Assembly (NCBI GenBank): GCA_016840285.1
Contig: JAEOSR010000163.1
Location: 1-64,000, forward strand
Source of the DNA: Candidatus Hodarchaeota archaeon
GTDB lineage: Archaea; Asgardarchaeota; Heimdallarchaeia; Hodarchaeales; Hodarchaeaceae
DNA: 64,000 bases
Direction of reading: 5' to 3'
Part shown: positions 1,482 through 51,197 of the stretch, one piece after another
Position numbering within the stretch: the first letter of the stretch is position 1
How the letters are laid out: every line of letters begins with the position of its first letter
Position numbers and translations under genes: made by a program
Notes under the pieces: generated by a model
The model's database searches: none
What the model was told of the DNA's origin: nothing
What the model saw: only the letters and a program-made list of their open reading frames with translations

Positions 1482-2933
1482 ATGGTGATTACAAAGACAA
1501 AAATAGTCTGTACGATTGGACCAGCAACCGAGGATCCTTCTGTATTTAAAAAATTGGTCGAAGCAGGGATGGATGTATGTCGCCTTAATTTCAGTCATGG
1601 GTCTTATTCAGATCACAAAGAACGGTATGAACTTATCAGAGAGACTAGTGACGATCTTGCCGTTTTAGTCGATCTGTGTGGACCAAAAATACGAACTGGA
1701 GAGGTAAAAAAAGGAACTGTTATCAAAACAGGTCAAAAATTCGAGATTTCTGCAGATATCAGTTTGGAAGGGGATTCAAAGACATGTACAACTAATTATC
1801 CACCTCTTATAAAAGATGCAAAAGTCGGAAATCATCTAGCTATCGATGATGGGTTACTACTGCTAAAAATTACTAAAAAAACAAAGTCTGAGCTAGTTTG
1901 CAAGGTATTGAATGGTGGTCCACTAAAATCAAGAAAGGGGATAAATGCTCCAGATGTACCTTTATCATTATATTTTCCTCTTGAAAAAGACTTACAAGAC
2001 GTTCGTTACGTTTTGAGAAAGTTAGATATTGATTTTTTAGCGGCATCTTTTGTTCGTAGAAAAGAAGATATTCTGAAAATAAAAGAGATACTGGATGAAG
2101 TGCATTCACCCATCGGAATTATCAGTAAAATAGAACATCGTGATGCCCTAAAGAATTTTGATGAAATTTTAAAAGTATCGGATGGAATTATGGTCGCGAG
2201 AGGGGATCTAGGAATAGAAATTCCCACAGAACAAGTACCCATTGTTCAAAAGGAACTGATTTCAAAGTGTAATCATATCGGTAAACCAGTAATTGTAGCA
2301 ACCCAGATGTTAGAATCAATGATCAATAATCCACGACCAACCCGAGCAGAAGCATCAGATGTGAGTAATGCAATCATAGATGGATCTGATGCGGTCATGT
2401 TATCTGGGGAGACTGCAGTTGGTAAATTTCCTGTGGAGGCTGTCCAATATCTAGAAAAAATTGCAAAAGCGGCTGAAGATCATGGATTAATACGTCAAGT
2501 TGGTTATGGTATCGAACAACCGTCTATCACTGAAGTGTTTGGGAGAGGAGTTTACATGATTAGTCAAGAAAATCATTTGAATATTAAAGCTATCCTAACA
2601 AACACAAGAAGGGGATCTACGGCAAAACTTGTGGCAAAATACAGGCCAAAAACACCTATTATAGCTGGTACTCCCTATCCATCAACCAAAAGGCAATTAA
2701 ATTTAGTTTGGGGTGTATGCCCAATACAAGTTGAAGTAACCAATTCCTCGAACGAATTAAAATACTTTCTAGCAAAAGAGGCTCATGAGAGAGGTCTACT
2801 TCAACCTGAAGATCAGGTACTCATTATTGGTGGCAGTCTCTTAGGTTTTCCAGCCGCTACAAATTTAATTCAAACGATGAAAGTTGATGATATCCTTCTT
2901 TTTGGACAACAGCTGAGACGACCTTTAATGTGA
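1482..2933 (+). CDS. pyk: Pyruvate kinase
   Basis: A 483-residue full-length pyruvate kinase converting phosphoenolpyruvate and ADP to pyruvate and ATP. Visible are the N-terminal barrel motif KTKIVCTIGPA, NFSHG, the B domain at about residues 70-165, the catalytic lysine in IISKIEHRDAL near residue 210, the metal and phosphate site MVARGDLGIEIP, and ATQMLESM followed by PRPTRAEASDVSNAI and MLSGETAVGKFP. A C-terminal PK_C domain with IIGGS near the end is present. ATG 1482 is preferred because GGGG sits at the right distance; ATG 1470 would add four residues. The stop codon overlaps the GTG start of the next gene, so it is probably translationally coupled to the HgdB-like protein. Confidence 0.95.
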   Translation: MVITKTKIVCTIGPATEDPSVFKKLVEAGMDVCRLNFSHGSYSDHKERYELIRETSDDLAVLVDLCGPKIRTGEVKKGTVIKTGQKFEISADISLEGDSKTCTTNYPPLIKDAKVGNHLAIDDGLLLLKITKKTKSELVCKVLNGGPLKSRKGINAPDVPLSLYFPLEKDLQDVRYVLRKLDIDFLAASFVRRKEDILKIKEILDEVHSPIGIISKIEHRDALKNFDEILKVSDGIMVARGDLGIEIPTEQVPIVQKELISKCNHIGKPVIVATQMLESMINNPRPTRAEASDVSNAIIDGSDAVMLSGETAVGKFPVEAVQYLEKIAKAAEDHGLIRQVGYGIEQPSITEVFGRGVYMISQENHLNIKAILTNTRRGSTAKLVAKYRPKTPIIAGTPYPSTKRQLNLVWGVCPIQVEVTNSSNELKYFLAKEAHERGLLQPEDQVLIIGGSLLGFPAATNLIQTMKVDDILLFGQQLRRPLM

Positions 2934-4186
2934 CAAATGATAGGATCGGAAAAATACCATTGACTAAACGTAAGCGTATTCATGCTTCAGAGGAATTGAA
3001 AAAGGTTGCTACTGCTTATTACCAAGATTTAGATAGAGCAGCAAAGGATCCCTCTCAAAAAGTAGCTTGGTGCTCGAGTGTCGGCCCCGCCGAACTCTTA
3101 ATGGCTTTAGATTTTAAAGTATATTACCCAGAAAATCATACAGCAATGCTTGGTTCTAATCGGACTGCTAATGAATACATACCTGCTGCTATCGCGCTGG
3201 GATATTCACCAGAAATATGTTCATACCTTACAAGCGACATCGGTGCATTTATTAGTAAGAAAACTGCTTTAACGAAAGCTTATGGCGTTGACGAAGTACC
3301 AAAACCTGATGTGCTCGTATATAATACAAATCAGTGTAGAGACGTTCAAGATTGGTTTGCGTTCTATGCACGTACTTTTAATGTCCCATTAGTAGGTATA
3401 CATTCTCCAAAGAACATTGAAGAGATCGATCAGATTCATATTGATTATGTTACAGAACAATTGAAAGAAATGAGTGATTCGTTAAAAAAAATTTCAGGGA
3501 CAAGCTTTGACAAAAGGAAACTTGAAACCTCTGTTAGATTGTCGCTTGAGACGTCTATATTATGGACTGAAATTCTGGAAACAGCCTCAACAATTCCTTC
3601 TCCTTTATCATTTTTTGATGGTTGTATACATATGCTCCCAGCCGTTGTATTGAGAGGCGAGCAAGCAGCAGTCGATTATTACAAATTATTAAAACAGGAA
3701 CTCAAGGAAAGAGTAGACAATGGAATCGCGGCCGTAGAGAATGAGAAATATCGGTTATTCTGGGAGGGAATGCCTATATGGGGAAAGTTGAGGGCGCTTT
3801 CGGAGCAGTTCATAGAATTGGAGTCGTGTGTTGTAGCTTCAACTTACTGTAATAGCTGGATATTTAGTGATTTTAATCCTCAAGAACCATTTTCAAGTAT
3901 GGCTAAAGCATACACAAAATTATTTATCAATCGGTCAGAATCAAGTAAGGAAAAATATCTACATGAAATGATCCAGAAATATAAAATTGATGGCATTATT
4001 TTTCATAATGCTCGGACGTGTCCCAATAATTCCAACACTAGTTATGGTTTGCCCAAACGTATTGAAGAACAAATGAATATACCAAGTTTAGTAATAGATG
4101 CTGATCTTAATGACCTGAATGTTTATAGCGAAGAACAAACCAAAACTAACATTGAAGCTTTCATAGAACAGCTAGCTGGAATTTAA
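2930..4186 (+). CDS. 2-hydroxyacyl-CoA dehydratase D / benzoyl-CoA reductase family subunit, orphan
   Basis: A 418-residue protein of the HgdB/BcrB/BcrC superfamily, which binds [4Fe-4S] or double-cubane clusters and accepts one low-potential electron from an ATPase activator. The first cluster-binding cysteine motif VAWCSSVGPAELL is at residue 48, further cysteines are at 97 and 136 (NTNQCRD), and ARTCPNNS lies near the C-terminus. It starts at a GTG that overlaps the pyruvate kinase stop and is followed 74 bp later by its activator. Only one catalytic-type subunit is encoded here, whereas classical dehydratases and reductases need two different ones. It may be a homodimeric enzyme like the double-cubane cluster proteins or YjiM, or work with a subunit encoded elsewhere. 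Substrate unknown. Confidence 0.8.
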   Translation: MTNDRIGKIPLTKRKRIHASEELKKVATAYYQDLDRAAKDPSQKVAWCSSVGPAELLMALDFKVYYPENHTAMLGSNRTANEYIPAAIALGYSPEICSYLTSDIGAFISKKTALTKAYGVDEVPKPDVLVYNTNQCRDVQDWFAFYARTFNVPLVGIHSPKNIEEIDQIHIDYVTEQLKEMSDSLKKISGTSFDKRKLETSVRLSLETSILWTEILETASTIPSPLSFFDGCIHMLPAVVLRGEQAAVDYYKLLKQELKERVDNGIAAVENEKYRLFWEGMPIWGKLRALSEQFIELESCVVASTYCNSWIFSDFNPQEPFSSMAKAYTKLFINRSESSKEKYLHEMIQKYKIDGIIFHNARTCPNNSNTSYGLPKRIEEQMNIPSLVIDADLNDLNVYSEEQTKTNIEAFIEQLAGI

Positions 4187-4260
4187 AAGCGTCATCTTTC
4201 AAAATTTTGTCTGGATTTAGCGGATACTCGTTTCGAATCAAAAGAAATGGAGAAAATATT

Positions 4261-5046
4261 TTGTCTCTGTTTGCTGGAATAGATATTGGTTCATCATTCA
4301 CTAAAATAGTTTTATTAGATCAGGCAAAGAGTATTATTGGAACAGAAATCCGTCTCTCTGGGACAGATTTACAATTTGCTGCTGATGAAGGACTACGAAC
4401 AGCTCTAAAAGGCAATTTTCAGTTTTCTAGGATCAAAGGAATTGTTACAACAGGTTATGGAAGAAAGAATGTTCAAATTGATAATAAGAAAATCACTTCA
4501 ATTACGGAGATTAGTTGTAATGCTAAAGCAGCACAGTTTTATTATCCAGACAAAGCACTTTCAATAATTGATATTGGTGGTCAGGATACTAAAGTTATTA
4601 AAACGCGGGATGGGAAGCGTACGGGTTTTAAGATGAATAGAAAATGTGCTGCTGGAACTGGAACATTTTTAGAAGAGCTTGCGTTGAAATTAAGAGTGCA
4701 ACCAAGTGAAATGGATAAGTTAGCAAGACAGTCAACAAATGCAAAATCAATTAGTAGTTATTGTACGGTATTCGCTGCAACTGAGATCTTGAGTCGTATT
4801 AGGGAAGGTGATTCTGTTGAAGATATGGTTCGTGGTGCGTTTCATTCTGTTGTTAAACGCGTAATTGAGATAGATGTGTTAGATAATGAAATAATATTGA
4901 CAGGAGGGGTAGTAGCTCACAATCCTACTATTGTTGAAATTTTTGAGCAGGAAATAGGCAAGCCTGTTTCTGTTCCACCTTCTCCTCAATTATTTGTTGC
5001 TTTAGGTGCAGCATTATACGCATTGGAAGAGGAAACATCAATTTAA
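4261..5046 (+). CDS. ATP-dependent activator (activase) of the HgdC/BcrA-BadF family
   Basis: A 261-residue ASKHA-fold ATPase that drives an electron into its partner with ATP hydrolysis. The phosphate-binding loop FAGIDIGSSFTK, the IDIGGQDTK motif, and the two cysteines that hold the [4Fe-4S] cluster between two monomers are present: C129 in NRKCAAGTG and C168 in SYCTVFAATE, nearly at the positions known from Acidaminococcus HgdC. The start TTG 4261 has GGAG eight bases upstream and gives the usual family length; a TTG at 4207 would add 18 unlikely residues. It belongs with the preceding HgdB-like gene, not with the bzd operon, which has its own P and Q subunits. Confidence 0.87.
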   Translation: MSLFAGIDIGSSFTKIVLLDQAKSIIGTEIRLSGTDLQFAADEGLRTALKGNFQFSRIKGIVTTGYGRKNVQIDNKKITSITEISCNAKAAQFYYPDKALSIIDIGGQDTKVIKTRDGKRTGFKMNRKCAAGTGTFLEELALKLRVQPSEMDKLARQSTNAKSISSYCTVFAATEILSRIREGDSVEDMVRGAFHSVVKRVIEIDVLDNEIILTGGVVAHNPTIVEIFEQEIGKPVSVPPSPQLFVALGAALYALEEETSI

Positions 5047-7587: not shown

Positions 7588-7770
7588 CTATTCAGTTTTG
7601 TCTCTTACTCGTGTGTATATTACTCGATAATTAGCGCAGTCAGCTTTAAAACATTCCGCACATCCTTCCATTTCCCCTGGAATTACAGATTCAACGCGTA
7701 CTTCTTGATTTAATGATTTATATAATTCTACGTATTCGTTCACGCGATGTTCTTCAATGGTAAACTTCAT
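7588..7770 (-). CDS. Small Cys-containing protein at the 3' end of the bzd operon
   Basis: A 60-residue protein beginning MKFTIEEHRVNEYVELYKSL, with three cysteines in EGCAECFKADCANYRV that may bind a metal. GGGAG lies just ahead of this ATG on the minus strand; an in-frame start at 7824 would add 18 charged residues and has no good ribosome site. It follows the BzdV-like gene by 86 bp on the same strand and may be the last cistron of the benzoyl-CoA reductase operon. I do not recognise the family. The amphipathic start and ending on basic residues look like a real protein rather than chance reading. Confidence 0.5.
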   Translation of the reverse strand: MKFTIEEHRVNEYVELYKSLNQEVRVESVIPGEMEGCAECFKADCANYRVIYTRVRDKTE

Positions 7771-7856
7771 CTCCCATCCCTTCTTCTCTAGCTGCGATCT
7801 TTTCGTATTTTCCTCGCTTTTCAAGTCTACTCGATTCTTCCTGCAGTTTTATTTCA

Positions 7857-10385
7857 TTAAAAAAGATCATCATCCAACTCTTCATTACCCTCTGGCATTC
7901 TCCCAAATTCATGCATGAATTGCTGAAGCATTTCGCTCTCTTTCTTTGTATACATTGGATCTTCTTGGTAATCAAAGTATTGGGCCTTATCGTTCGTGCT
8001 CAGCTGTTCTTCTAATGCTTGACGGAGATTGGGAGTGCCTTGAATTAATATGATTTGCTTACTTTCATCAAGAAGTTGAAAAGCGCCTTCAACCCATGGA
8101 ATTGTTTGAATGTTCTCGATCGTAAATTCTTGCCATTTTTCTGGGGGTAATGTTACAGATGAAATATTCAAACGTAAATCACATTTAAGACATCGTTTCG
8201 CTTCTTCTATTGCCATATTTTCATTCAGGCCTAGTTCTATTTCGTTAAAGCTGGTGATACGATCTGTGAGGGGTAGACATGGCATTTGAACTCGTGGTCT
8301 ATCAAAGAAATCCTCTTCTCGGCCAAACCAAGGATTTAAAGTGTCTAACTCAATTAGTGTTTCATCTATATTACCACTACCTCCCAAATATCTATCTATG
8401 GAACCAGCAGCTTTTCGTCCCATTTCAATAGCTTCAACAACCGATAAGGGTCCCTTTATTACTTCTCCTCCAGCGAAAATTCCTTTTACATTTGATGAAA
8501 GGTCAGTATCATTCACGCTGATTAAACCTGATGGGGAAATTTGAACTGATGTTTCTGGTTCTAAAACAGTTAGATCAGGATTTTGACCTATTGCCAAAAT
8601 CACCATATCAGTTTCAATGGTCTTTATGGTTGTTTCGTCAAATGTTGGACTAAATCTGCCTTTTTCATCAAAAACATCTGTACATCGAACCAATTCCACC
8701 TTTTCTACTTGATCATTCGTACCAATGATCTTCTTGGGGCCCCATGAACAATGAAGAGTAATATTCTCATCTAATACTTCTTGAATCTCCCATTCATGAG
8801 CAGGCATTTCTTCTCGTGATTCAAGACATGCTATCTGGACTTCCTCGGCACCTAGTCTAAGTGCAGTTAATGCAACATCCATTGCAACCCCACCACCTCC
8901 AATCACAAGAACTCTTTTTTCTAGTTGTACTTCAGGATCTTGTGTTACATCCATTAAAAATTCTAATCCCCAGAGAACTCCCTTGAGTTTTCCTCCTTCG
9001 ATTTTAAGTTTCTTAGCTTGTTGTGCTCCAATAGATATGAAAATTGCTTCATATCGTTGTTGTAAATCCTCAAGAGTTAACTCTTGTCCCACTATGATAT
9101 TGGTTTTGAATTCTACACCAGCATCTTTTATATATTTAAGATCCACGTCAAATGTTTCTCGTGGTAATCGATATTCTGGAATCCCTTGCCTTAACATACC
9201 TCCCACTTCGGATTTTTCCTCAAAAATAACAGCTGAGTGACCATTTTTGGCTAAATAATAAGCAGCTGTAAGTCCTGTAGGCCCAGAGCCAATTATAGCT
9301 ACTTTTTTTCCAGTAGCAGGAGTAGTCGTAATTTTTGATTGCCACATTCCAGTGTCATGCTCTATAGCAAAACGCTTAAGCGCACATATTGCAATTGGAT
9401 CGTTAAGCTGACCCCGACGACATTCTGTTTCACAAACATGAAAACATACTCTTCCAAGAACAGAGGGAAGAGGAGCTTTCTCTCGAATAACTGCAGCAGC
9501 TTCTCCAAACTTACCTTCAGAAATCAATCGAATATAGCGGGGAACATCGGTTCCTAAAGGGCAGGTATTACGACAAGGAACAAGTGAATTTTCACGTTCA
9601 GCCCATAAAATATCTTTGTCAGAGAGAGCCCCTGTAGGACAAACCTCAATACAGGCTCCACAAAATTTACATCCTGATTCCTTGAGTGTAGGTTTGATGC
9701 TGCCTACAATTGTGTCATCGTTTGAAAAGATAAATCCAAGCGCGCTAACACCTCGAATATCCTGACAAACTCTTACACAACGAGTACATCCTATACACAA
9801 TTCATAATTTCGTATGAAGAGAGGTTCATCGTCAAGAATTTGAATTCCTTGAGGTTTATAGCGTGGAGTATCATCCCTTATCCCTACATATTCTGCTACT
9901 TTTTGTAATTCACACCGCCCCAACTCTGGGCAACATCGTTCTTCAACGGGAACATTTGTGGAACAAGGTTCACGACTACAACCCTCTTGTTGAGCACAAG
10001 TTAAACAAGCATGCGGGTGTTTTGCGAGAATGTTCATCATCCTTTCCCGTCTGAAATCGTGAATCTCTGGTAAATCAGTCCAAATTGTCATATTCTCTTT
10101 TATTATTGTATTACATGATGTTACAAGTTCTTTAACTTCTTCTATTTTCACTACACACAGCTTACAACCTTCGTGTGTTTGCGATGCCAATAACTCATCA
10201 TTCTTATATTGGATATCGCCTCGATATATTGATTCTACTGGTTTCAAGTCTTGTGATGGTGTTAAATCCGGGTGTGTACATAGTCTTGGAATATAAATGT
10301 CAGCTGTTTGAGCAGCCTCTAGTACTGTTGTTCCTTTCTTTGCTTCAATTTTTATATCATTGATAGTTATTGGTATTGTTTCCAT
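7857..10385 (-). CDS. BzdV-like NAD(P)H:ferredoxin oxidoreductase (NuoG-type Fe-S domain fused to GltD-like flavoprotein)
   Basis: An 842-residue iron-sulfur flavoprotein. Residues 1-95 are a [2Fe-2S] domain (C36, C74, C77, C91); next is a His-Cys3 cluster site (H123, C127, C130, C136), then two [4Fe-4S] sites (LCIGCTRCVRVC near 197 and CKFCGACIEVCP near 239). From about 265 comes a GltD/NfnB-like module with its own cysteines (CRNTCPLGTDVPRY), an FAD motif AIIGSGPTGLTAAYYL and an NAD(P) motif VIGGGGVAMDVAL. The last 110 residues are an unassigned tail. Bacterial bzd clusters encode a BzdV reductase proposed to reduce ferredoxin; this enzyme, encoded behind the ferredoxin gene, should do the same for benzoyl-CoA reductase. 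The long N-terminal Fe-S array suggests more than one redox partner. Confidence 0.85.
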   Translation of the reverse strand: METIPITINDIKIEAKKGTTVLEAAQTADIYIPRLCTHPDLTPSQDLKPVESIYRGDIQYKNDELLASQTHEGCKLCVVKIEEVKELVTSCNTIIKENMTIWTDLPEIHDFRRERMMNILAKHPHACLTCAQQEGCSREPCSTNVPVEERCCPELGRCELQKVAEYVGIRDDTPRYKPQGIQILDDEPLFIRNYELCIGCTRCVRVCQDIRGVSALGFIFSNDDTIVGSIKPTLKESGCKFCGACIEVCPTGALSDKDILWAERENSLVPCRNTCPLGTDVPRYIRLISEGKFGEAAAVIREKAPLPSVLGRVCFHVCETECRRGQLNDPIAICALKRFAIEHDTGMWQSKITTTPATGKKVAIIGSGPTGLTAAYYLAKNGHSAVIFEEKSEVGGMLRQGIPEYRLPRETFDVDLKYIKDAGVEFKTNIIVGQELTLEDLQQRYEAIFISIGAQQAKKLKIEGGKLKGVLWGLEFLMDVTQDPEVQLEKRVLVIGGGGVAMDVALTALRLGAEEVQIACLESREEMPAHEWEIQEVLDENITLHCSWGPKKIIGTNDQVEKVELVRCTDVFDEKGRFSPTFDETTIKTIETDMVILAIGQNPDLTVLEPETSVQISPSGLISVNDTDLSSNVKGIFAGGEVIKGPLSVVEAIEMGRKAAGSIDRYLGGSGNIDETLIELDTLNPWFGREEDFFDRPRVQMPCLPLTDRITSFNEIELGLNENMAIEEAKRCLKCDLRLNISSVTLPPEKWQEFTIENIQTIPWVEGAFQLLDESKQIILIQGTPNLRQALEEQLSTNDKAQYFDYQEDPMYTKKESEMLQQFMHEFGRMPEGNEELDDDLF

Positions 10386-10495
10386 CTTTAGACTCTCTTA
10401 TAAGATGATATATCAGAGTAATCAATTTAAAACGAAGTGTTGAATAATCACGATATTTTCTGTCGTGATAGTAGTTCGTATAAGGTATAATTAGC

Positions 10496-10783
10496 TCACC
10501 AAGAGTGAGCTAAAGCCCTTGGTTCACAAGCCTGAACACAAGGCAATTCTATTGGTTCACCAGTTGGTTTACAAGGAGCACACGAGTATTTGATCTTTTT
10601 ACGATGTTCGTCAGTAACCCTTGCAACAAGTTCTTCTGCTAAAGGATCTAATTCATTTTCTACAACTTCGAGGACACCCTCAGGGCAAGCAGCAACACAT
10701 TTACTACACCCATCACAGAGATCTGTGTCTACAGTGATGAAGTACTCTCCTGAACCATCTTTATATCCATAATTGGCTTTCAT
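10496..10783 (-). CDS. Two-cluster ferredoxin of the benzoyl-CoA reductase operon (BzdM position)
   Basis: A 95-residue ferredoxin. The first cluster motif is CDGCSKCVAACPEG at about residues 23-36. The second is spread out: CAPC near residue 68, then CVQAC and a proline before the C-terminus. A 30-residue insertion lies between the clusters. It follows subunit Q by 36 bp and precedes the BzdV-like reductase, the same order as ferredoxin BzdM after BzdQ in Azoarcus. It is the probable electron donor to the P/Q activator subunits. The assignment to BzdM rests on position and fold, since ferredoxins are hard to tell apart by sequence. Confidence 0.85.
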   Translation of the reverse strand: MKANYGYKDGSGEYFITVDTDLCDGCSKCVAACPEGVLEVVENELDPLAEELVARVTDEHRKKIKYSCAPCKPTGEPIELPCVQACEPRALAHSW

Positions 10784-10819
10784 TTCTCGTTCTTTCCATA
10801 ATTCGATTTGAACGCAACA

Positions 10820-11704
10820 CTAGCCAGCCTTTTTACGAGCTTTCTCTACTAAAGCTTTCCCGAATAAAGCGCCCCCAATCGCTCCTGCAAGTTGAGGATC
10901 AACAGTGGGCTCAGGAGCAGTAATCTCTAATTCTTTCTCAATACGTGAAACCACCCCTATATTTTTAGCAATACCACCAGTTATTGCAAAATCATTTTCT
11001 ACTCCAAGACGCTCTAAGAGAGTAACAACTCTATGAGCCATTGCCCCGCAATAAGCAGCTAAAACTCTCTCTTTGGACCATCCTTTCCGTAGTAAACCTA
11101 CAGCTTCAGATTTAGCAAAAACAACACATGTACTACTTACTGGCTCTGGTTCTTCATCTACTAATGACATTTGTCCAACATCATTGACGTGAACTTGCAG
11201 GAGATCCGCAAAGACTTCCATACCTCGCCCTGTTCCCGCTGCGCATTTATCATTCATGAGAAAGGCAGTGACCTTTCCACGTTGATCGCAGCGAATCGCC
11301 TTACAGTCTTGACCACCCATATCTAGAACTGTCCTGATTGTTGGCCCATACATATAATTTGCGCCTCGTGCGTGACAAGCAATTTCTGTTATAGCCCGCT
11401 TTGCGAAAGGAACATTAACGCGGCCATAACCTGTGCCAACAGCGTACTCAATTTTGTCTAAAGTAAGTCCTGTATCTTCAAGTGCCCAATTTATAGCTTT
11501 ATTGGCACTATCTGGGCTATCACTTCCAGTTCTCATGTTTGAATAACAATAGAGATTCCCATCAACCATGACCACTGCTTGAGTACTAACTGATCCAACA
11601 TCTATACCAGCTGTTATAATATTGGTATTTTTCCAATCCAAATCTGGGTTTGTCCAACGTGATTCAGTCCATCTCCAATATTCTATACTTTCTGTACTTG
11701 CCAT
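10820..11704 (-). CDS. bzdQ: Benzoyl-CoA reductase, bzd-type, subunit Q (ATPase/electron activator)
   Basis: A 294-residue ASKHA ATPase with [4Fe-4S]-binding cysteines C153 (NDKCAAGTGRG) and C193 (STCVVFAKSE), the phosphate loop TAGIDVGSVSTQ and the motif VLDMGGQDCKAI. The N-terminal 30-residue extension rich in tryptophan (EYWRWTESRW) and the total length are typical of the Q rather than the P subunit. With BzdP it forms the ATP-hydrolysing electron-injecting module of class I benzoyl-CoA reductase. It starts 4 bp after bzdP with AGAAGGA as ribosome site, so the two are tightly coupled. It differs from the orphan activator at 4261 by that N-terminus. Confidence 0.9.
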   Translation of the reverse strand: MASTESIEYWRWTESRWTNPDLDWKNTNIITAGIDVGSVSTQAVVMVDGNLYCYSNMRTGSDSPDSANKAINWALEDTGLTLDKIEYAVGTGYGRVNVPFAKRAITEIACHARGANYMYGPTIRTVLDMGGQDCKAIRCDQRGKVTAFLMNDKCAAGTGRGMEVFADLLQVHVNDVGQMSLVDEEPEPVSSTCVVFAKSEAVGLLRKGWSKERVLAAYCGAMAHRVVTLLERLGVENDFAITGGIAKNIGVVSRIEKELEITAPEPTVDPQLAGAIGGALFGKALVEKARKKAG

Positions 11705-11708
11705 TGTT

Positions 11709-12494
11709 TCATCCTTCTATTCTAGCTTGTGCTGTAAGCGCCGCCCCATAAGCACTCACGAACTCTGGTGTTACTGGATCATTTGGTACCAGGATCTCAC
11801 ATTTTAGGTTCCGTTTCATTGAATCTACAAATCCAATATTTTTTGCAACTCCTCCAATTAACGCTACATCCTGTTCAATGCCGACTCTGCGGGCCATACT
11901 CGTGATCCTGTCAGCAATTGCATCGTGTACAGCACGTACGATGTCTTCTTTAGGTGTTTTCTGATGTATTAATGATACAACTTCGGATTCTGCGAAAATT
12001 GTGCATTGAGCGTTCATTGGGACAGCTTTCGTTGATTTCAGAGAGAGCGCCCCCATCTTTTCGATGTTTATTTCTAGTGCTCTTGCCATTGCTTCCGTGA
12101 ACGCTCCAGCTCCCGCAGCGCATTTTTCATTAATGCCAAAATCTACAACTTTTCCACTTTCATTAAGACGAATAGCTCTACCTTCTTCTGCACCTACATC
12201 GATCACTGTACGAACAGAAGGAAAGATCGCGATTATTCCACGTGCATCTGCGCTGATCTCAGTAACAGTATCATTCGCGAAGGTAGTTGCCTCCATTCCT
12301 GCACCTGTAGCAGTGAAATGTTTAATTTCCTTTCGGGCGATTCCAGCATCGTTTAGTGCTTTGTTTAATGCTTGTTCTTCGGAAGCTTTCTGATCAAATC
12401 CAGTCAGGACTGAAGAAATGGCTAATATTTCGCCATTTCTTAGGATAACTGCTTTAGTATTTTTAGCTCCATAATCCATTCCAATAGTTACCAT
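11709..12494 (-). CDS. bzdP: Benzoyl-CoA reductase, bzd-type, subunit P (ATPase/electron activator)
   Basis: A 261-residue partner of BzdQ in the ATP-driven electron activation module. It has the phosphate motif VTIGMDYGAKNTKAVI, TVIDVGAEEGRAI in place of the usual GGQD, and cluster cysteines C125 (NEKCAAGAG) and C164 (AQCTIFAES). The short length separates the bzd type from the bcr/bad type, where BcrA is about 437 residues. It begins 7 bp after bzdO with GGAGTGA upstream. The divergence of the GGQD element from Q is what is expected of the heterodimer. Confidence 0.9.
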   Translation of the reverse strand: MVTIGMDYGAKNTKAVILRNGEILAISSVLTGFDQKASEEQALNKALNDAGIARKEIKHFTATGAGMEATTFANDTVTEISADARGIIAIFPSVRTVIDVGAEEGRAIRLNESGKVVDFGINEKCAAGAGAFTEAMARALEINIEKMGALSLKSTKAVPMNAQCTIFAESEVVSLIHQKTPKEDIVRAVHDAIADRITSMARRVGIEQDVALIGGVAKNIGFVDSMKRNLKCEILVPNDPVTPEFVSAYGAALTAQARIEG

Positions 12495-12501
12495 AATTTT
12501 G

Positions 12502-13815
12502 TCACTCCGCTATTTTTTCCAATTCAAGAGACTCCATGAAGGCGTCTATCCGGGTCATTGTCTTAGTGAGATCAAATTCTCTCTCATCACCCATATTTCC
12601 CTCAAATGGCATTACTGGAAACCCAGCTTTCTGAATCGCTAAACGATTCTCTGCAATTCCAAGACTTAATCCTTCACAACCTCTATTGAAGTGTAAAAGA
12701 ACCCCATCAAGCTTCCATTCACGTGCAATGCGAATCATCATCTCCGATTTAAGTTTAGGATGATAAAAATGCTGCCATTCTGGTTTACTCAAGTTCCATT
12801 CAGCAAGAGCTCTCAAAGCTTCGTCTCGGTTTGTTATTTCAATATCAGGAATAGCTCGTGGCCCCCAGGTTCCATCTTCTTGATCTTCCCAAAGTCCAAT
12901 CAGTGAAAAAGTGTAAAGACTTCCCACCGATACGCAGCCATACTTTTCTAGATAGCGGAAGACCTTCAGGAACGCCCAAGGAGGTTGTGTATCAGTCATA
13001 ACACGACACCGTTCATTCTCAACGGCAGCTATTCCACGTTTTACACGATCTTTTACTTCAGGGTAGAGTTCTTTCTCATAAAAATCAGCGGTCCATTGTG
13101 CTGATTTTCTTAACGTACCTAAGACATAGAGAGAATACATTGATTTTTCATCTAGCGGTGCGGGGATCGTTTTGTTAAGAGCACAGATAGCTGCCCAATA
13201 ATGACAACTTCGAAACTCATTATGAACTGCTTTAATTAGGAGCTCATCATTATAATCTCTGCCAGTCACCTTTTCAAGCCATTTAATCCCATCATGCATT
13301 TGTCCAACAATATAATTAATTTTACTATCTGTCAGTTTCCCATAAGGGCCCACTGAAACATCGATACTATACATCGGAACCCCACCTTCAAGCTCACTGG
13401 CTACTTGATACCATTTAGAATGGGAACAACAAATATGATCTTGCCAAATAAAGTCAGCTTTTGGGAATTCCTCAGAGTATTGAGGCCACGCATATTTATT
13501 TATAAGAATTGAACCCCAATAATTGCGCATGTATGAGCAGAGATCGCGTGCGTACCCCTTCGTTTCGATCGCTTCCTGACATTCTGTTGCAAAATCTTTA
13601 TTCCATGCAACAGTTGCTCCATAAGGTTCACCAGTTAAAGCCCATACGTCGTCACCCAAACCAGAAGGAATGGCGTCAAAAGACCAAGCGCCACCTGCCC
13701 AACGAATTCCTCCTTTCTCGTGAGCCTCTGCAAAACCCTTGTAATAGTTTTCCCGAAGAGATTTGGCTTTTCCCCAACATTTTAGTCTTTCTGTTGAATA
13801 TTTAGTTGAACTCAT
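12502..13815 (-). CDS. bzdO: Benzoyl-CoA reductase, bzd-type, subunit O
   Basis: A 437-residue HgdB-superfamily subunit of class I benzoyl-CoA reductase. With BzdN it forms the module that binds benzoyl-CoA and a [4Fe-4S] cluster and reduces the ring to cyclohexa-1,5-diene-1-carbonyl-CoA. Cysteines are seen at C93, C129-C130 ([10 protein letters not shown]), CHYWAAIC and near the C-terminus in [10 protein letters not shown]. The length and sandwich position between N and P match BzdO/BcrB. A strong AGGAGG site precedes two adjacent ATG codons; the second (13815) has better spacing. The gap to bzdN is 11 bp. Confidence 0.9.
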
Positions 13816-13826
13816 CATTATTCCTC

Positions 13827-14978
13827 CTAAAATAAGTCTTCCTCTCGAATGATTTCAAGAAAGGCCTCCACACGAGTCTTAAATTGACCAATTGGTACTG
13901 TAACATCTAATTCAAGGAACAAAGTTGATAGACCATTCTTTTCTAATGTCTCTTTAATGATCGGGATATCAAGTTCATGAGGATCACAGAATTTCTGTTG
14001 GATTATGATAGCTCCCTGAACATCGTAGTCTTTTGCCATCCGAACAATATGGTCAACCCTTGTTCGCTCGGGCCAATCCTTACTAGGACATGGAACACGT
14101 TTGACATAGCGTTCAGCTATTGCAGTTAATGGGTCACCTGCTGGATCTACTTCCTCTTGGAAATATCGCGTGCCTGTGCAGTGGTCATCAATAACAAATG
14201 TCGCTCCTAAGTTTTCAACCATTGATATAAACTCTGTATCATCATTTTCAGAGCCCAAGATCATAACCCGTTCTCCTGGATCCCCCAAATTTCTCGAGGG
14301 AAGTTCCTGAAGAAGGGTTTCTAAGGTTTGGCTGTGATCACTTTTATCAGTCGTTTGACTTGATACTACCATATACATTGCTTCAAGTCCAGTCAAAGGC
14401 GGGTTGACGCTCTTTCTTAACTCATATACTTGCTTCATAAGACGCCTATTGGTATTCATAAGCTCAATTCCGTTCCTGAGATCTTCATCAGTAATAGTTC
14501 TGCCTATCCATTTTTCTATAGAGGTTTTAAACTGAACCAGCTCTTCTCTTAAATAGGGGATAGCATGAGGACTTTGAACATGCATTGGATGAGGTAAATA
14601 GTAGCTGTAATCCGTAGGGATATGAATATCCCAACTTGTATAAGCCTGTCTGATATGTAAGCAGCTCTGAGCTATCATAATTCCATCAAGATAGTCAAAA
14701 CGTCCTTTCAATCCCTGGGCCAAACAATCTCGGCAGAAAGGACAGAACATTGCAAAAATATGCGGTTCAGTGACATCCTGAGGTTCATGACTGCCTAAAA
14801 TACGAACTGGAAGAATGTCAGCGGCGTATAATATCTCCTCGGGGACATAGGTACAAAAATAACCCATTACTTTCCCCCCTGTACGCTCTTTCCATGCTTT
14901 TGCATAATCATGTCTGTTTTTGTACCAATCTCTGAATTTGTTAAACAATTCTTTCTCTTCTTTGTGTACAAGTTCCAT
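13827..14978 (-). CDS. bzdN: Benzoyl-CoA reductase, bzd-type, subunit N
   Basis: A 383-residue HgdB-superfamily protein, first of the four reductase subunits. It has the classical [12 protein letters not shown] motif (C42), a close cysteine group [12 protein letters not shown] (C79, C82, C85), QSCLHIR (C106) and a late [11 protein letters not shown] motif, the pattern of BzdN/BcrC/BadD. The ATG at 14978 has AAGGTG nine bases upstream; a TTG at 14996 would add six residues. The GNAT gene ends about 33 bp before it, so transcription likely starts further upstream. With O, P and Q it makes a complete ATP-dependent benzoyl-CoA reductase. Confidence 0.92.
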
Positions 14979-15011
14979 CAATTTGAACACCTTCAAAATT
15001 TGTAAGAATCT

Positions 15012-15458
15012 TTATAATTCCTTCATTAGAGTGATAAATCCACTTTTTGTCATTCCCAAAGTCTTGAAGAACTCGAGAAGGTCACTGGAAGTCCAATCTA
15101 CAGTTGTATACACAACTTTGATTTCTCGTAATTTGAGATCTTCGAGAAGTCTTTCTCCGAGTTTTTTTCCCACACCTTTCGCTGTATGTGTTGGATCAAC
15201 ACCAAGAATTTCAACCCATCCTCCTTTCTCAACACCAAATAACCAAGGATGTATGGTCGCCATCATAAACCCCACAACACGGTCTTCAATCTCAGCAATC
15301 AAACATATGCTCTCAGATCGGCTGAGATAATGTTGAACTTGAGATTTCCACATGTCTGGGCGGTGAAGACGGGTGATTTTTTCATCAATAGCTATAACCG
15401 AAGAAACATCGTCTTCTTTCATTTTCCTGACAAAAATACCTTCCTCAGTTAAGTTCAT
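15012..15458 (-). CDS. GNAT-family acetyltransferase in the bzd operon
   Basis: A 148-residue GCN5-related N-acetyltransferase. The acetyl-CoA site is seen as VEILGVDPTHTAKGVGKKLG, with the beta-strand RVVGFMMATIHPW before it. It lies between the DUF2080-like gene (21 bp) and bzdN (33 bp) on the same strand, so it is probably co-transcribed with the reductase. The Rhodopseudomonas bad cluster also contains a putative acetyltransferase (BadL), and acetylation of aromatic acyl-CoA ligases is known there, so a role in controlling an acyl-CoA ligase such as 46783 is possible. Substrate is not deducible from sequence. Confidence 0.85.
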   Translation of the reverse strand: MNLTEEGIFVRKMKEDDVSSVIAIDEKITRLHRPDMWKSQVQHYLSRSESICLIAEIEDRVVGFMMATIHPWLFGVEKGGWVEILGVDPTHTAKGVGKKLGERLLEDLKLREIKVVYTTVDWTSSDLLEFFKTLGMTKSGFITLMKEL

Positions 15459-15479
15459 TGATATCTACTCGCGAAATTT

Positions 15480-15716
15480 TCATTTTTTTGGTTTATTTTG
15501 TTCATTTCGCTTTTTTGAAACACGAATAATCTTAACCCGAGAACCGATCCAATCTCTAGGTATGTAAACGCGTCCAGTATTACCACTCTGCCTCACTTCC
15601 CGATCGAGCATTTCAAAGCCATAAACTTTGAACTCGGAGGGTTGGTCTTCGACTTTAAAATCAGATGATTGGTCTTCACTTGACTCACTCAAGAGATACA
15701 CCAAATTACAGCCCAA
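15480..15716 (-). CDS. Small DUF2080-like (AbrB-type) protein, first gene upstream of the bzd operon
   Basis: A short protein of up to 78 residues whose C-terminal half, VRQSGNTGRVYIPRDWIG followed by RVKIIRVSKK, matches the SGNSGRVYLPKDWIGK.V pattern of archaeal DUF2080 proteins, relatives of the swapped-hairpin AbrB/SpoVT DNA-binding fold. The N-terminal part contains two near-copies of the sequence SSDFKV / PSEFKV. The start is uncertain: TTG 15716 gives the longest form, while an internal ATG gives about 42 residues covering only the core domain. It is the promoter-proximal gene of the operon, so it could act as a local regulator, though family members are also called transposon-associated. 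Confidence 0.65.
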   Translation of the reverse strand: MGCNLVYLLSESSEDQSSDFKVEDQPSEFKVYGFEMLDREVRQSGNTGRVYIPRDWIGSRVKIIRVSKKRNEQNKPKK

Positions 15717-15920: not shown

Positions 15921-15947
15921 TACCATGCATAAAGCACAGTGAGTGTT

Positions 15948-16229
15948 ATGGCTGCTGAATTAAGGATATTATTTCACGCAACCTTTAGAGAGGTTACTGG
16001 AAGAAAAGAAATCAAAGAAGAACTTCAAAAAAACACTACAGTTAAATCTATTTTGGATAAATTAACCAAAAAATATGGAAAAGATTTCAATGGAATAATC
16101 GATCCAAAAACGAAAAAAATTTCTACTGAAGTTTTGATCATGATTAATGGGAGAGCTATTAGAACAACAGATATAATATTAGAAGACAGGGACAGTTTAA
16201 TAATATCACTTCCTCTTGGCGGTGGTTAA
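15948..16229 (+). CDS. MoaD/ThiS-like ubiquitin-fold sulfur carrier
   Basis: A 93-residue beta-grasp protein ending in ISLPLGGG, the exposed di-glycine tail that is adenylated and thiocarboxylated in MoaD and ThiS. The archaeal MoaD pattern is recognisable in FHATFREVTGRKEI, SILDKLTKKYG and VLIMINGRAI. Next to a tungsten aldehyde oxidoreductase it most likely supplies sulfur for the molybdopterin dithiolene cofactor; it could also be a SAMP-type protein modifier. ATG 15948 is preferred over GTG 15939. Its 3' end lies 28 bp from the next small gene. Confidence 0.85.
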   Translation: MAAELRILFHATFREVTGRKEIKEELQKNTTVKSILDKLTKKYGKDFNGIIDPKTKKISTEVLIMINGRAIRTTDIILEDRDSLIISLPLGGG

Positions 16230-16257
16230 TAGACAAAAGTGCATAGGTGAAAATATA

Positions 16258-16401
16258 TTGAATGAAGTCAGATGTTTAAATTGTTTAAAACGATTCGAGG
16301 TTCAACCAAAGGCTGAAGAAAGTACTTGTCCAAACTGTCATATTCGGTATAGAATCTCTTGGCCAAGATCAGACCAACCCAAAATACGTGGGGCGGTATA
16401 A
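16258..16401 (+). CDS. Tiny zinc-ribbon protein between MoaD-like and AOR genes
   Basis: A 47-residue protein with one clear zinc ribbon: CLNC at the N-terminal end and CPNC sixteen residues later, then a basic stretch. TTG 16258 has AGGTGA eight bases upstream; TTG 16216 would overlap the MoaD gene and add 14 residues. It is packed between the MoaD-like and AOR genes on the same strand (21 bp to the AOR start), so it is probably part of the same transcript. A role in cofactor delivery or assembly of the tungsten enzyme is possible, but nothing in the sequence proves it. Confidence 0.6.
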   Translation: MNEVRCLNCLKRFEVQPKAEESTCPNCHIRYRISWPRSDQPKIRGAV

Positions 16402-16422
16402 AAGGTATTTGAGGTGAAATTC

Positions 16423-18312
16423 ATGGTTTGGAAAAGGAAAATCGCTTATGTTGATTTATCTAAAGGGAAAATCACAAAAAAAACGATACCAAACTCACTT
16501 CGAAAGCAGTATTTAGGGGGTCGCGGGATCAATGCCTATTATTTATATAATCACATTTCACCTGGAATTGATCCCCTAGGCCCAAAGAATGCATTACTTA
16601 TTGGAACAGGATTACTCACTGGAGTTCCAGCTCTTGGTGCTGGTAGATGTGATATTGCAGCAAAGTCACCCTTAACAGGAGTAGTGGGAAACTCGAATAT
16701 AGGAGGTTTCTTTGGTCTGGAGTTGAGACTGGCTGGTTTTGATAACTTAATTATAACTGGAAACGCTGAGAAGCCTATTTACCTTAGGATAAAGGATGGA
16801 GAGATAGAAATCTTAGATGCAAGTCATCTCTGGGGAAATGACACCTTTGATACTCAAACTCAAATCCGTTCTGATCATAATGATGAGGAAATAAAGAGTA
16901 TTGTCATCGGTGTTGCTGGAGAAAAACTTGTGCGTTATGCTAATATTAGAACTGGGATGAAAAATTCTGCAGGACGAACAGGTATGGGGTGTGTTATGGG
17001 TTCCAAGAATTTAAAGGCCATAGCTGTTCGTGGAACAATGGATATTGAATTTTCATATCCAGAGAAATTATTGGAATATAGTTCACAAATGAACGAAATG
17101 ATTACTAGTTCTCGTTGGGCACGGGCGCAATCAAAATGGGGTTCACTTATCATTTATAGTAACACCAATACTACAGGACTAATCAGAACTAGAAACTTCC
17201 AGAAAAATTTGTTAGAAGGAGGAGAAGACCTAGAACCAGAAAATATGGACAAATACACAATTGGTATGTCTGGTTGTTATGGTTGTAGTGTGCACTGTCG
17301 TCATCGCTATGTATTGGAGGAAGGGCCTTATGCCCCTATCTTTGCAGAAGGGCCTGAATATACCTCCCTTGGTGCTTTCGGAACAATGATAGACTGCAAG
17401 AAAATGGAAACAGTATTAATTGCTAATCACTTGGTAAATAAATATGGTATCGACACACTAGAAGTCGGAGGGCTATGTGCGTGGGCGATGGAACTTTGGG
17501 AGAAAGGAATACTCACGGAAGAAATGACAGATGGATTAGAACTCGAATGGGGGAATGAGGAAGTTCTTTTCGAGCTTATCCGCAAAATATCCTATAGAGA
17601 AGGTTTCGGCGCCCTACTCGCTGATGGTTTCAAGCCTGCAATAGCGAAAATAGGTAAAGGATCAGAATATTACGCGATGCAGATTAAAGGGATGAGTAAC
17701 TTACATTCAGATGAACGGCCAACTCCCAGTCTTGCCTTAGGAATAGCAACTGCGACACGGGGAGCCGATCACCTCAGAAGTCGTCCAGCTATAGACCTTT
17801 ATGGATTACCTGAAGAACTTTTAGAGGAGATATATGGTGGCCCTGTTTCCTCAGATTATACTTCTTATGAGGGGAAAAGTCGTGAGGTTTGGTGGCAAGA
17901 ACTTCTTTATGCAGTCACAGACTCAATTGGGATATGTAAATTTCAGACTGTATTTTGTGCTGTACATGCACCTAAATGGGACGAATTCTCGAGACTTATC
18001 TATCTAACTACAGGAATGGACCTCAAAAAGCCTCAACTTATGGAGATTGGAGAACGAATATCCACTACGGAACGACTATTCAATATCAGAGAGGGATTTT
18101 CGAGAAAAGATGACATTTTACCAGAACGATTCTTTAAAGAACCTACCACTCTTGGATTTCCAATAGCAAAAGGCAAGAAAATTGATAGAGACAAATTCAA
18201 AGCGATGTTGGACGAGTATTATGCTCTTCATAAGTGGGATAATGAAGGAGTTCCTACCACTGAAGTTTTACAGAAACTCGGTTTAGAGAAGCAACAATCT
18301 CAAACAACTTGA
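16423..18312 (+). CDS. Tungsten-dependent aldehyde:ferredoxin oxidoreductase (AOR family)
   Basis: A 629-residue AOR-family protein. The N-terminal domain has the pterin-binding stretch YLGGRGINAYYLY, GAGRCDIAAKSPLTG and the IRTGMKNSAGRTGMGCVMGSK region. The [4Fe-4S] cysteines are CYGCSVHC (about residues 285-292) and the late cysteine in DSIGICKF near 504. A second pterin region is GADHLRSRP. AORs oxidise aldehydes to acids with ferredoxin as acceptor; benzaldehyde or phenylacetaldehyde would suit this neighbourhood. The partner gene follows directly. BamB of class II benzoyl-CoA reductase is in the same family, so that role is an alternative. ATG 16423 is six bases after GAGGTG; GTG 16414 would overlap that site. 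Confidence 0.88.
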   Translation: MVWKRKIAYVDLSKGKITKKTIPNSLRKQYLGGRGINAYYLYNHISPGIDPLGPKNALLIGTGLLTGVPALGAGRCDIAAKSPLTGVVGNSNIGGFFGLELRLAGFDNLIITGNAEKPIYLRIKDGEIEILDASHLWGNDTFDTQTQIRSDHNDEEIKSIVIGVAGEKLVRYANIRTGMKNSAGRTGMGCVMGSKNLKAIAVRGTMDIEFSYPEKLLEYSSQMNEMITSSRWARAQSKWGSLIIYSNTNTTGLIRTRNFQKNLLEGGEDLEPENMDKYTIGMSGCYGCSVHCRHRYVLEEGPYAPIFAEGPEYTSLGAFGTMIDCKKMETVLIANHLVNKYGIDTLEVGGLCAWAMELWEKGILTEEMTDGLELEWGNEEVLFELIRKISYREGFGALLADGFKPAIAKIGKGSEYYAMQIKGMSNLHSDERPTPSLALGIATATRGADHLRSRPAIDLYGLPEELLEEIYGGPVSSDYTSYEGKSREVWWQELLYAVTDSIGICKFQTVFCAVHAPKWDEFSRLIYLTTGMDLKKPQLMEIGERISTTERLFNIREGFSRKDDILPERFFKEPTTLGFPIAKGKKIDRDKFKAMLDEYYALHKWDNEGVPTTEVLQKLGLEKQQSQTT

Positions 18313-18328
18313 AATGGAGAAATGTGTT

Positions 18329-18814
18329 ATGCAGAAAATACTATTTGTTGAACCTGAAAAATGTACGGGATGTAGAATCTGTGAAACAGTCTGTTCTCTC
18401 CATCAAGAGAAAGTCGTCAATCCAGCACGAGCAAGGATCCAGATTATAAAGTGGGATAACAAAGGAATATATATCCCAATGATTTGTCATCAATGTGAAA
18501 CTGCCCCTTGTGAAACAGTTTGTCCCATGCGTGCTATTCATAAAGACGAAACCACAGGAGCACTGATTATTGATTATGATTTATGCGTAGGATGCAAATT
18601 ATGCGTCACTTTTTGTCCATTTGGAGGAGTAGGAATAGATATTGAAGGAAAAGTCATCAAATGCGATCTGTGTGAAGGGGATCCTCAATGTGTAAAGAAT
18701 TGTGAACCAAAAGCTTTACAATTCATTGAGGCAACTTCTATCAACTTAAGGAAACGAAGACTGGCAGCTGAAAATTTGTCAGAGTTAATGAAGACAGTTT
18801 TAACCGTCACTTAG
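18329..18814 (+). CDS. Ferredoxin-like electron-transfer subunit with four [4Fe-4S] sites (AorA-like)
   Basis: A 161-residue HycB/DmsB-type protein with sixteen cluster cysteines in four groups: CTGCRICETVC, CHQCETAPCETVC, CVGCKLCVTFC and CDLCEGDPQCVKNC. It begins 16 bp after the AOR stop. The small AorA subunit of Aromatoleum AOR also carries four such clusters, whereas BamC of class II benzoyl-CoA reductase is usually described with three, which favours the AorAB reading. It probably passes electrons from the tungsten subunit to free ferredoxin or a flavoprotein. ATG 18314 is an alternative start. The 3' end overlaps by 4 bp the stop of the convergent gene. Confidence 0.85.
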   Translation: MQKILFVEPEKCTGCRICETVCSLHQEKVVNPARARIQIIKWDNKGIYIPMICHQCETAPCETVCPMRAIHKDETTGALIIDYDLCVGCKLCVTFCPFGGVGIDIEGKVIKCDLCEGDPQCVKNCEPKALQFIEATSINLRKRRLAAENLSELMKTVLTVT

Positions 18815-29310: not shown

Positions 29311-30078
29311 TTGGCAAACGATTTAATTCAAGTTGAGAAAAGTAATGACATTGGAAAAATAGTCTTTAATAATGGGGACTGGAATATTTTAAACATTGCA
29401 ATGATGAAACAAATTAACGAAGCACTTGAGAGCTTCCTAAAAGACCAGTCTCTTAAAGCGGTCGTGATTGGCCATAATGGAAGATCTTTTTCTGCAGGAG
29501 TCGATGTGGGTGAACATATGGGTAATTTAGCTCCAAAAATGCTGAAAGAATTTCATGAAATGTTCAAAAAGTTAAATCGATTGAATTGTCTGACAATTGC
29601 TAGTGTTAAGGGAGCTGCTCTCGGTGGGGGGTGTGAGGTGGCAGTATTCTGTGATATCGTCCTAGCTTCAGAGAAAGCCAAGTTTGGACAACCTGAGATA
29701 AAGGTAGGTGTTTTTCCACCTATATCAGTACTAATTTTCCCCTATCTTACAGGCCACAAGAAAGCATATGAACTTCTCCTCCAAGGAGAAACAATTAGTG
29801 CCAACGAGGCATATCGCCTTGGTTTAGTCAATCATGTGTTTCCAATTGAGTCGTACGAACAAGAATTTGACCAGTTTCTTGAACGGTTTGGGAAGCTAAG
29901 TACAGTGGTATTACACCATACCAAAAAAGCAATTCGGTTAGGTTTTGCCGATGATTTTGATTCTCAAATCGATAAAGTAGAAGATTATTACCTGACTGAG
30001 CTCATGAAAACCCATGATGCGAATGAAGGATTACAAGCATTTGTTGAAAAACGTCCTCCCGAATGGAAAAATCGTTAG
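29311..30078 (+). CDS. dch: Cyclohexa-1,5-diene-1-carbonyl-CoA hydratase (BzdW/Dch)
   Basis: A 255-residue crotonase that adds water to the product of benzoyl-CoA reductase. The signature of this subfamily is clear: SFSAGVDVGEHMGNLAPKML, GAALGGGCEVAVFCD, FGQPEIKVGVFPPISVLIFP and the loss of the usual GTQ turn. Both the GCEVA and QPEI glutamates are present. TTG 29311 has GGTGA seven bases upstream. It lies 137 bp ahead of the matching dehydrogenase at 30215, the order seen in bacterial bzdWX. About 15 kb separates it from the reductase operon. Confidence 0.88.
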   Translation: MANDLIQVEKSNDIGKIVFNNGDWNILNIAMMKQINEALESFLKDQSLKAVVIGHNGRSFSAGVDVGEHMGNLAPKMLKEFHEMFKKLNRLNCLTIASVKGAALGGGCEVAVFCDIVLASEKAKFGQPEIKVGVFPPISVLIFPYLTGHKKAYELLLQGETISANEAYRLGLVNHVFPIESYEQEFDQFLERFGKLSTVVLHHTKKAIRLGFADDFDSQIDKVEDYYLTELMKTHDANEGLQAFVEKRPPEWKNR

Positions 30079-40556: not shown

Positions 40557-40676
40557 AAGCCAATATGAAACTACGCTTTCTAAAAAGGAAAACCAATTTT
40601 TCTATCCTAGAATTTTTATGTAATGGCATTTTTCCTAATCCCTAGCTAAATTACAATATTTAGAAGGATGAACATC

Positions 40677-50687: not shown

Positions 50688-50704
50688 CCTGAAAGGAGAT
50701 TAAC

Positions 50705-51166: not shown

Positions 51167-51197
51167 TTTAGATACTAAAGAGATTCTAGGTGATAAA

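Follow-up and report, generated by a model that had tools for sequence, protein, structure and literature searches.

We analyze a 64,000-nucleotide stretch of contig JAEOSR010000163.1 (hereafter, "the window") from the Candidatus Hodarchaeota assembly GCA_016840285.1 and conclude, with a probability of about 93%, that positions 7588 to 15716 of its minus strand hold the operon for an ATP-dependent class I benzoyl-CoA reductase of bzd type, belonging to a Hodarchaeales-type Asgard archaeon, together with its own electron supply. Gene content, gene order, family membership, invariant cysteines, and distribution were established directly. Read 5' to 3', the region comprises an open reading frame (ORF) of 78 amino acids (aa), a GNAT gene, bzdN, bzdO, bzdP, bzdQ, a two-cluster ferredoxin, a BzdV-like gene, and a conserved 78-aa ORF (Table 1). 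An initial annotation of this DNA had already recognized N-O-P-Q, the two-cluster ferredoxin, and the BzdV-like gene on this strand as a bzd-type class I reductase operon in an archaeon. The ORFs are indeed open there, the lengths it gave for P (261 aa) and Q (294 aa) match, and its identification agrees with curated models for N, O, and Q, trees for O, P, and Q, and matches to PDB 8s02. The gaps it put at 4-11 bp between the reductase genes are short and measure 8 bp (N-O), 7 bp (O-P), and 4 bp (P-Q), followed by 36 bp between Q and the ferredoxin and 110 bp between the ferredoxin and V. Its description of the operon as complete holds for the reductase and the electron supply, but the downstream pathway genes lie in the window outside the operon. 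To that annotation we add the GNAT gene upstream of bzdN, the 78-aa protein downstream, and a C-terminal acidic tail ending in LF that BzdN and BzdV share.

Subunit identity was judged by NCBIfam curated (equivalog) cut-offs, Pfam, and phmmer searches against the PDB. Checked against the bzd subunit profiles, as the annotation had suggested, N, O, and Q exceed the cut-offs of their models (TIGR03190, 491 bits versus 454; TIGR03191, 680 versus 449; TIGR03192, 424 versus 380), and P matches the activase domain only (TIGR00241, 206 bits, cut-off 125), scoring 132 bits with the Q model, well under its cut-off. Of the solved BzdNO structures (PDB 8s02, 8s1t, 8s2r), 8s02 supplies the best PDB match for both BzdN (475 bits) and BzdO (653 bits), full-length and with the aligned Cys motifs retained. 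Far lower in the same search are 2-hydroxyisocaproyl-CoA dehydratase (165 bits for N, 103 bits for O) and the 3-methylbenzoyl-CoA reductase subunits MbdN and MbdO (114 and 37 bits).

For comparison, we used the best 80 of 167 BzdO-like loci (L001-L080), ranked by similarity to the window's BzdO; as they were picked in this way, the loci are kin. The BzdO tree (80 bzdO rows plus 7 outgroup rows) and a tree of activases from 33 chosen loci were both made by a quick search that drew a long-branch warning from the program, and their support values come from the Shimodaira-Hasegawa-like approximate likelihood ratio test (SH-aLRT) alone. The window's BzdO groups with Hodarchaeota- and Heimdallarchaeota-titled loci in a 16-row Asgard clade (SH-aLRT 100) within the 80 bzdO rows, and BcrB-type and single-D-component rows fall outside bzdO, on very long branches. 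P (33 rows, SH-aLRT 100), Q (34 rows, SH-aLRT 99), and single-gene activases (4 rows) each form one clade. The bcr-type outgroup was L040, where the C, B, and D models pass and A stays below; plasmid records checked for the same use carry other dehydratase-like genes and were kept out of the trees.

The cysteines of all four subunits are conserved throughout: C42, C79, C106, C267, C297, and C331 of BzdN (71/71 rows), C80, C94, C130, C131, and C381 of BzdO (80/80), C125 and C164 of BzdP (69/69), and C154 and C193 of BzdQ (66/66). The annotated presence of cluster cysteines in P and Q is thus seen as invariant columns, which extend to N and O; particular residues among them are presumed to serve as cluster ligands. 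TAG recoding, suspected from one internal TAG in bzdO of two genomes (G073 and G076), was dismissed, the loci showing an ordinary ORF that ends in TAG.

The Thauera and Rhodopseudomonas bcr/bad type is likewise class I and ATP-dependent. A bcr-type reductase was nonetheless rejected for the window: the best scores with the A, B, C, and D models are 149, 44, 137, and 127 bits, all under cut-off, and the long activator A is absent. With P and Q in clades of their own and the Q model passed, their initial assignment to the bzd rather than the bcr type is upheld.

Ferredoxin and BzdV both lie downstream of Q. Most loci with enough sequence beyond Q have a ferredoxin homologue there, and a basic stretch (R61, K62, K63, K65, K72) and the HSW end are conserved in 61/61 aligned rows; the ferredoxins of L183-L185 end KGQML or KGQVL instead, which weakens HSW as a universal partner. 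Pfam and PDB matches divide the BzdV-like protein into an N-terminal NuoG/HydA-like Fe-S module, a GltD/Nfn-like flavin part, and a C-terminal domain. Its AlphaFold model has a mean predicted local distance difference test (pLDDT) score of 88, with residues 831-835 and 838-841 below 50.

Electron path, ATP coupling, substrate, and direction are drawn by analogy from the Azoarcus and Thauera systems. Electrons from NAD(P)H would enter the GltD-like flavin part of BzdV and leave through its NuoG-like Fe-S module to the ferredoxin, which would pass them to the cluster between BzdP and BzdQ. These two subunits would hydrolyze ATP to drive the electrons into BzdN-O, which would convert benzoyl-CoA to 1,5-dienoyl-CoA, and the window's Dch, Had, and Oah would carry this product to ring opening. 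The acidic LF tails of BzdN and BzdV might hold the reductase and its electron donor on a common partner.

Past bzdN, on the opposite strand, the genes for Dch, Had, and Oah start at distances of 14 to 26 kb. Several points weigh against our interpretation: the Dch and Had models top their lists yet stay under cut-off (Table 1), BzdP matches no P-specific subunit model in NCBIfam, a benzoate-CoA ligase cannot be named with confidence in the window, and the substrate could be a substituted benzoyl-CoA. An unlikely alternative is that the bzd-type reductase acts mainly on another aryl-CoA (methyl-, hydroxy-, or naphthoyl-CoA) or in a physiological setting other than growth on benzoate. Substrate range is not readable from sequence, a bzdNOPQ-like cluster of NaphS2 is reported under the name of naphthoyl-CoA reductase (PMC12016498), and of the 21 bzdO-bearing Asgard genomes only 6 have an Oah over cut-off (7 among all 227 Asgard genomes searched); against this stand the high similarity to BzdN and BzdO of 8s02 and the canonical Oah in the window. 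It is very improbable that a 2-hydroxyacyl-CoA dehydratase and its activator have here been mistaken for the four subunits of a benzoyl-CoA reductase: the enzymes form one superfamily, and N reaches 198 bits with HadC (cut-off 700) and O 127 bits with HadB (cut-off 750), but the bzd models score about 2.5 times (N) and 5 times (O) higher and pass their cut-offs, two activases are present instead of one, ferredoxin and BzdV genes are attached, Oah is in the window, and the dehydratase grouping that the annotation named as its refutation is contradicted for O, P, and Q by tree position and for N by profile and PDB comparison.

Table 1. Features of the window, with positions, strand, and remarks on the assignment.
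Feature	Position	Strand	Remarks
Single D-component (HadB-like) + activase	2930..4186 + 4207..5046	+	separate from bzd, recurring neighbour
Conserved 78-aa protein, bzd-linked family	7588..7824	-	TTG start; downstream of V; no LF tail in window copy
BzdV-like NAD(P)H:ferredoxin oxidoreductase	7857..10385	-	842 aa; Pfam, PDB matches; tail DDDLF
Two-cluster ferredoxin (BzdM-like)	10496..10783	-	95 aa; Pfam Fer4_6; ends HSW
bzdQ, activase-type ATPase	10820..11704	-	294 aa; TIGR03192, Q clade, Cys columns
bzdP, activase-type ATPase	11709..12494	-	261 aa; TIGR00241, P clade, Cys columns
bzdO	12502..13818	-	438 aa; TIGR03191, 8s02 match, Cys columns, tree
bzdN, gamma/D-component subunit	13827..14978	-	383 aa from ATG; in-frame TTG at 14996 alternative; C-terminus IREEDLF
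GNAT acetyltransferase	15012..15458	-	PF00583; directly upstream of bzdN
Second 78-aa ORF	15480..15716	-	upstream of GNAT
AOR-family enzyme + Fe-S partner	16414..18312 + 18314..18814 (block 15939..18814)	+	divergent from operon; profile/PDB comparison
dch, dienoyl-CoA hydratase candidate	29311..30078	+	best family TIGR03189, 178 bits, cut-off 292
had candidate	30215..31261	+	best family TIGR03201, 228 bits, cut-off 339
oah	40668..41777	+	TIGR03200, 576 bits, over cut-off 464
Acyl-CoA synthetase, candidate benzoate-CoA ligase	46783..48366	-	PRK06187-type, under cut-off; homologues in bzd loci L010, L013, L015

Sequence relatives identify the host as an Asgard archaeon of Hodarchaeales type. The locus closest to the window, from a metagenome-assembled genome (MAG) titled Candidatus Hodarchaeota, has a BzdO at 96% and DNA 83% alike over 7.8 kb of the operon and 82% over the AOR genes next to it; L004 aligns with the window in colinear, interrupted pieces spanning about 0.1 to 32 kb. 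Every named organism among the relatives of N and O at 90% or more is an Asgard archaeon, and at the window's right end stand what we take to be PCNA- and RFC-like ORFs. One Hodarchaeota-titled MAG (G003) holds two bzd clusters (L003 and L005), representing either a second copy or a mixed bin. A profile search of 227 Asgard-phylum genomes found bzdO over cut-off in 21, and among our best 80 loci, retrieved with this archaeal query, 33 carry archaeal titles (16 Asgard and 17 Thermoplasmata-/Euryarchaeota-type). With these counts, and with Asgard clusters published in 2021, the initial statement that class I reductases are rare in archaea proves too strong. The bzd reductases are not rare there, and a benzoyl-CoA route is added to the Hodarchaeales, which are reported as the sister lineage of eukaryotes (PMC10307638).

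The bzd operon of Azoarcus is described with the order N-O-P-Q-M-S-T-U-V-W-X-Y-Z-A (PMC5658619). Like it, the window has four bzd-type subunits, a ferredoxin (BzdM), and BzdV in the same order; unlike it, the window has no S, T, and U between ferredoxin and V, a GNAT gene upstream, a 78-aa gene downstream, and pathway genes set apart. The Azoarcus order claimed initially stands for the sequence N-O-P-Q, ferredoxin, V, with ferredoxin and V as direct neighbours in the window. Loci of Asgard, Thermoplasmata-type, Aminicenantes, and other origin repeat this N-O-P-Q-ferredoxin-V order, apart from some with inserted genes, with no V behind the ferredoxin (L031, L053, L058), or with a formate dehydrogenase (L032).

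Published work already covers this type of operon, its occurrence in Asgard archaea (Heimdallarchaeota among them), and the links to BzdV and ferredoxin. A Hermodarchaeota cluster reported in 2021 (PMC8163825) combines on a single contig genes named bcrABCD and those for BzdV, ferredoxin, Dch, and Had, resembling the window in its Asgard host and in these associations, and the same report counts three Heimdallarchaeota with Bcr genes; the portion of its text available to us makes no mention of a GNAT gene, a 78-aa gene, or C-terminal tails. Chloroflexi are described with bzdNOPQ accompanied by bzdV and korAB (PMC5736913), and Thorarchaeota with bcr genes but without Dch, Had, or Oah (PMC8072921). 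As our Asgard genome search returned many low-scoring matches, we suspect that some of the Thorarchaeota genes may be other dehydratase-like proteins.

BzdN and BzdV are unrelated, yet 59/76 BzdN and 54/56 BzdV end exactly in [DE]LF, rising to 67/76 and 55/56 when one extra residue is allowed; only 3'-complete ORFs of L001-L080 were counted (BzdV of L017, L022, L043, and L052 is cut by contig ends). Among the other ORFs of the same 80 loci, taken mechanically at 80 aa or more and so including non-genes, 5 of 3,093 have this exact end, four of them from the 78-aa family, and no O, P, Q, or ferredoxin ORF counted has an LF tail. Nine BzdN lack [DE]LF within one residue of the end and read EEDLY (4), QEALF or QESLF (3), EEDIF (1), and SEVLF (1); the two BzdV without the exact end read DDLY (L030) and EDLFD (L080). 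BzdN of PDB 8s02 ends EEELF.

The tail also appears on other proteins. In a Methanomassiliicoccales-titled MAG, a molybdopterin formate dehydrogenase (L032:13190-16096) follows the ferredoxin in BzdV's place and ends GDDLDDLFD; its same-genome paralogue (L138, 58% alike) lacks the tail, as do the formate-dehydrogenase-like proteins of L124-L135. Among the best 120 relatives of the tailed enzyme, its own record included, 9 have [DE]LF at most 3 residues from the end and at least 5 more end DDLY. A divergent Asgard bzd-like cluster (L187 in G087; BzdO 43% alike, under cut-off) has a 371-aa protein whose alignment to BzdV is confined to residues 4-255, the Fe-S module, and whose end reads ELEELF. 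The tail is absent from 8/8 complete GltD-like paralogues fetched (others were cut by locus ends) and from all 120 single-D-component proteins. The 11 complete BzdV in the paralogue set end [DE][DE]LF (9) or DELY (L158, L161); one of the 11, L168, is a 640-aa copy away from its genome's two bzd loci. In five loci taken by genome place, L187 among them, BzdV ends DDLF in 3/3 complete long copies, and BzdN ends PDLY, PDLF, PDLF, EEDLF, and EEILF, the PD forms being those of L183-L185. We found no report of a C-terminal tail in the literature on benzoyl-CoA reductase, BzdN, and BzdV, most subscription journals lying outside the search.

From this distribution over BzdN, BzdV, the L032 formate dehydrogenase, and the L187 protein, we propose, at what we regard as even odds, that [DE][DE]LF and its close variants serve as a docking code for bzd-type reductases in bacteria and archaea alike, which would tether BzdN and its electron donors to one partner as an electron-channelling complex, with the GNAT and 78-aa proteins as further members of the module. 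The donors bearing it would be BzdV, the short BzdV-like protein, and the molybdenum formate dehydrogenase that replaces BzdV; our best guess for the common partner is the ferredoxin, whose basic stretch is conserved. If true, this would explain how a costly ATP-driven reductase may draw low-potential electrons from exchangeable donors, and the tail would be a sequence tag for seeking unknown donors.

We consider it less probable, though far from negligible, that the tails are coincidental or that a structural helix end in BzdN happens to resemble an unrelated tail in BzdV. The BzdN tail comes straight after the last helix and may have a structural role, the motif was spotted post hoc after inspection of the data, and conservation within each family reflects shared descent; in addition, LLFD closes the gamma subunit of a different type of reductase in L073, the 78-aa protein of the window itself has no tail, and the PDLF or PDLY ends of BzdN in L183-L185 and the DELY ends of BzdV in L158 and L161 depart from the motif. 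However, only 1 of 3,089 ORFs outside the BzdN, BzdV, and 78-aa families shares the ending, the formate dehydrogenase in BzdV's place ends DDLFD when its same-genome paralogue does not, and the BzdV tail has low predicted order.

In 26 of 70 loci, the gene immediately upstream of bzdN, and on its strand, is a GNAT homologue; the 70 are those of the 80 loci with a bzdN match above 50% and at least 700 bp of upstream sequence. Seven of the 26 are Hodarchaeota-/Heimdallarchaeota-titled, with 60-69% identity to the window's GNAT; the homologues at 35-44% come from 14 Thermoplasmata-/Euryarchaeota-titled, 4 Aminicenantes, and 1 Elusimicrobia loci, as judged by similarity rather than tree-based orthology. 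None of the 6 Lokiarchaeota loci counted has it. Across the 58 genomes of the host class there are 8 GNAT copies above 200 bits, spread over 7 genomes, and every one lies about 1.3 kb from a bzdO; the eighth bzdO genome of the class (G007) has no close copy. Its locus (L008), from a Heimdallarchaeota-titled MAG, is on a 3.1-kb contig with a BzdO that groups with Lokiarchaeota, and is perhaps misbinned. BadL of Rhodopseudomonas palustris is reported as an acetyltransferase required for anaerobic benzoate use (PMC6191541). Because of BadL, a regulatory or small-molecule role for the GNAT is a fair guess.

The downstream 78-aa family has members in the bzd loci of MAGs titled Hodarchaeota, Lokiarchaeota, Chloroflexota, and Methanomassiliicoccales. 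Within the Asgard set it is found in 18/21 genomes with bzdO and 6/206 others, the genomes being related by descent, and it lies on the bzdO contig 14 times, 4.8-6.0 kb from bzdO. The protein has no Pfam match, and a fold search returned nothing significant (best E-value 1.7). The other 78-aa ORF, upstream of the GNAT, resembles what we take to be a small AbrB-like or transposon-type protein.

The genes for ring opening may differ in Lokiarchaeota loci, where a dch homologue adjoins had and bzdN. Ahead of dch-had-bzdN, Lokiarchaeota-titled L010, L011, L013, L014, and L015 encode a crotonase of 319-362 aa with 30-31% likeness to the window's Oah, and L186 carries one as well. The copy at L010:5872-6837 scores 204 bits with PRK07396, 203 with BadI, 195 with MenB, and 186 with Oah, all under cut-off, and the Lokiarchaeota-type genomes with this crotonase have no Oah over cut-off. 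It may be a ring-opening enzyme of another kind. Two Peptococcaceae loci (L053, L058) also have a gene like it ahead of bzdN.

Divergent from the operon, the AOR-family enzyme and its Fe-S partner form a block that starts with a presumably MoaD/ThiS-like ORF. Such AOR genes occur in bzd loci L001, L004-L007, L045, L057, L060, L068, L070, L071, and L072 (L068 and L072 are one contig). The nearby AOR, Fe-S, and CCG-domain proteins prompted us to consider a class II (Bam) reductase; this was rejected because, by PDB score, the AOR lies nearer to true AORs (1aor, 363 bits) than to chain 4z3w of the class II reductase (235 bits). The window's AOR and 12 bzd-linked relatives, two from one contig, have EGPEYT where 1aor has Glu313, and keep His448; we assume catalytic roles for both residues. 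Going by sequence, the substrate of the bzd-linked AOR may not be an ordinary aldehyde.

The D-component and activase pair recurs beside bzd in a number of Asgard loci and in L035; both genes are present in L004, L005, L006, and L035, and the D-component also in L010, L033, L037, L041, L042, L044, and L054; it stands alone near bzd in Ignavibacteria- or Bacteroidetes-titled loci. Finally, genes 34-36% similar to a pair at window positions 48717-51794 lie near bzd in L183 and L185; we take the pair to be indolepyruvate:ferredoxin oxidoreductase-like, and it could supply reduced ferredoxin.

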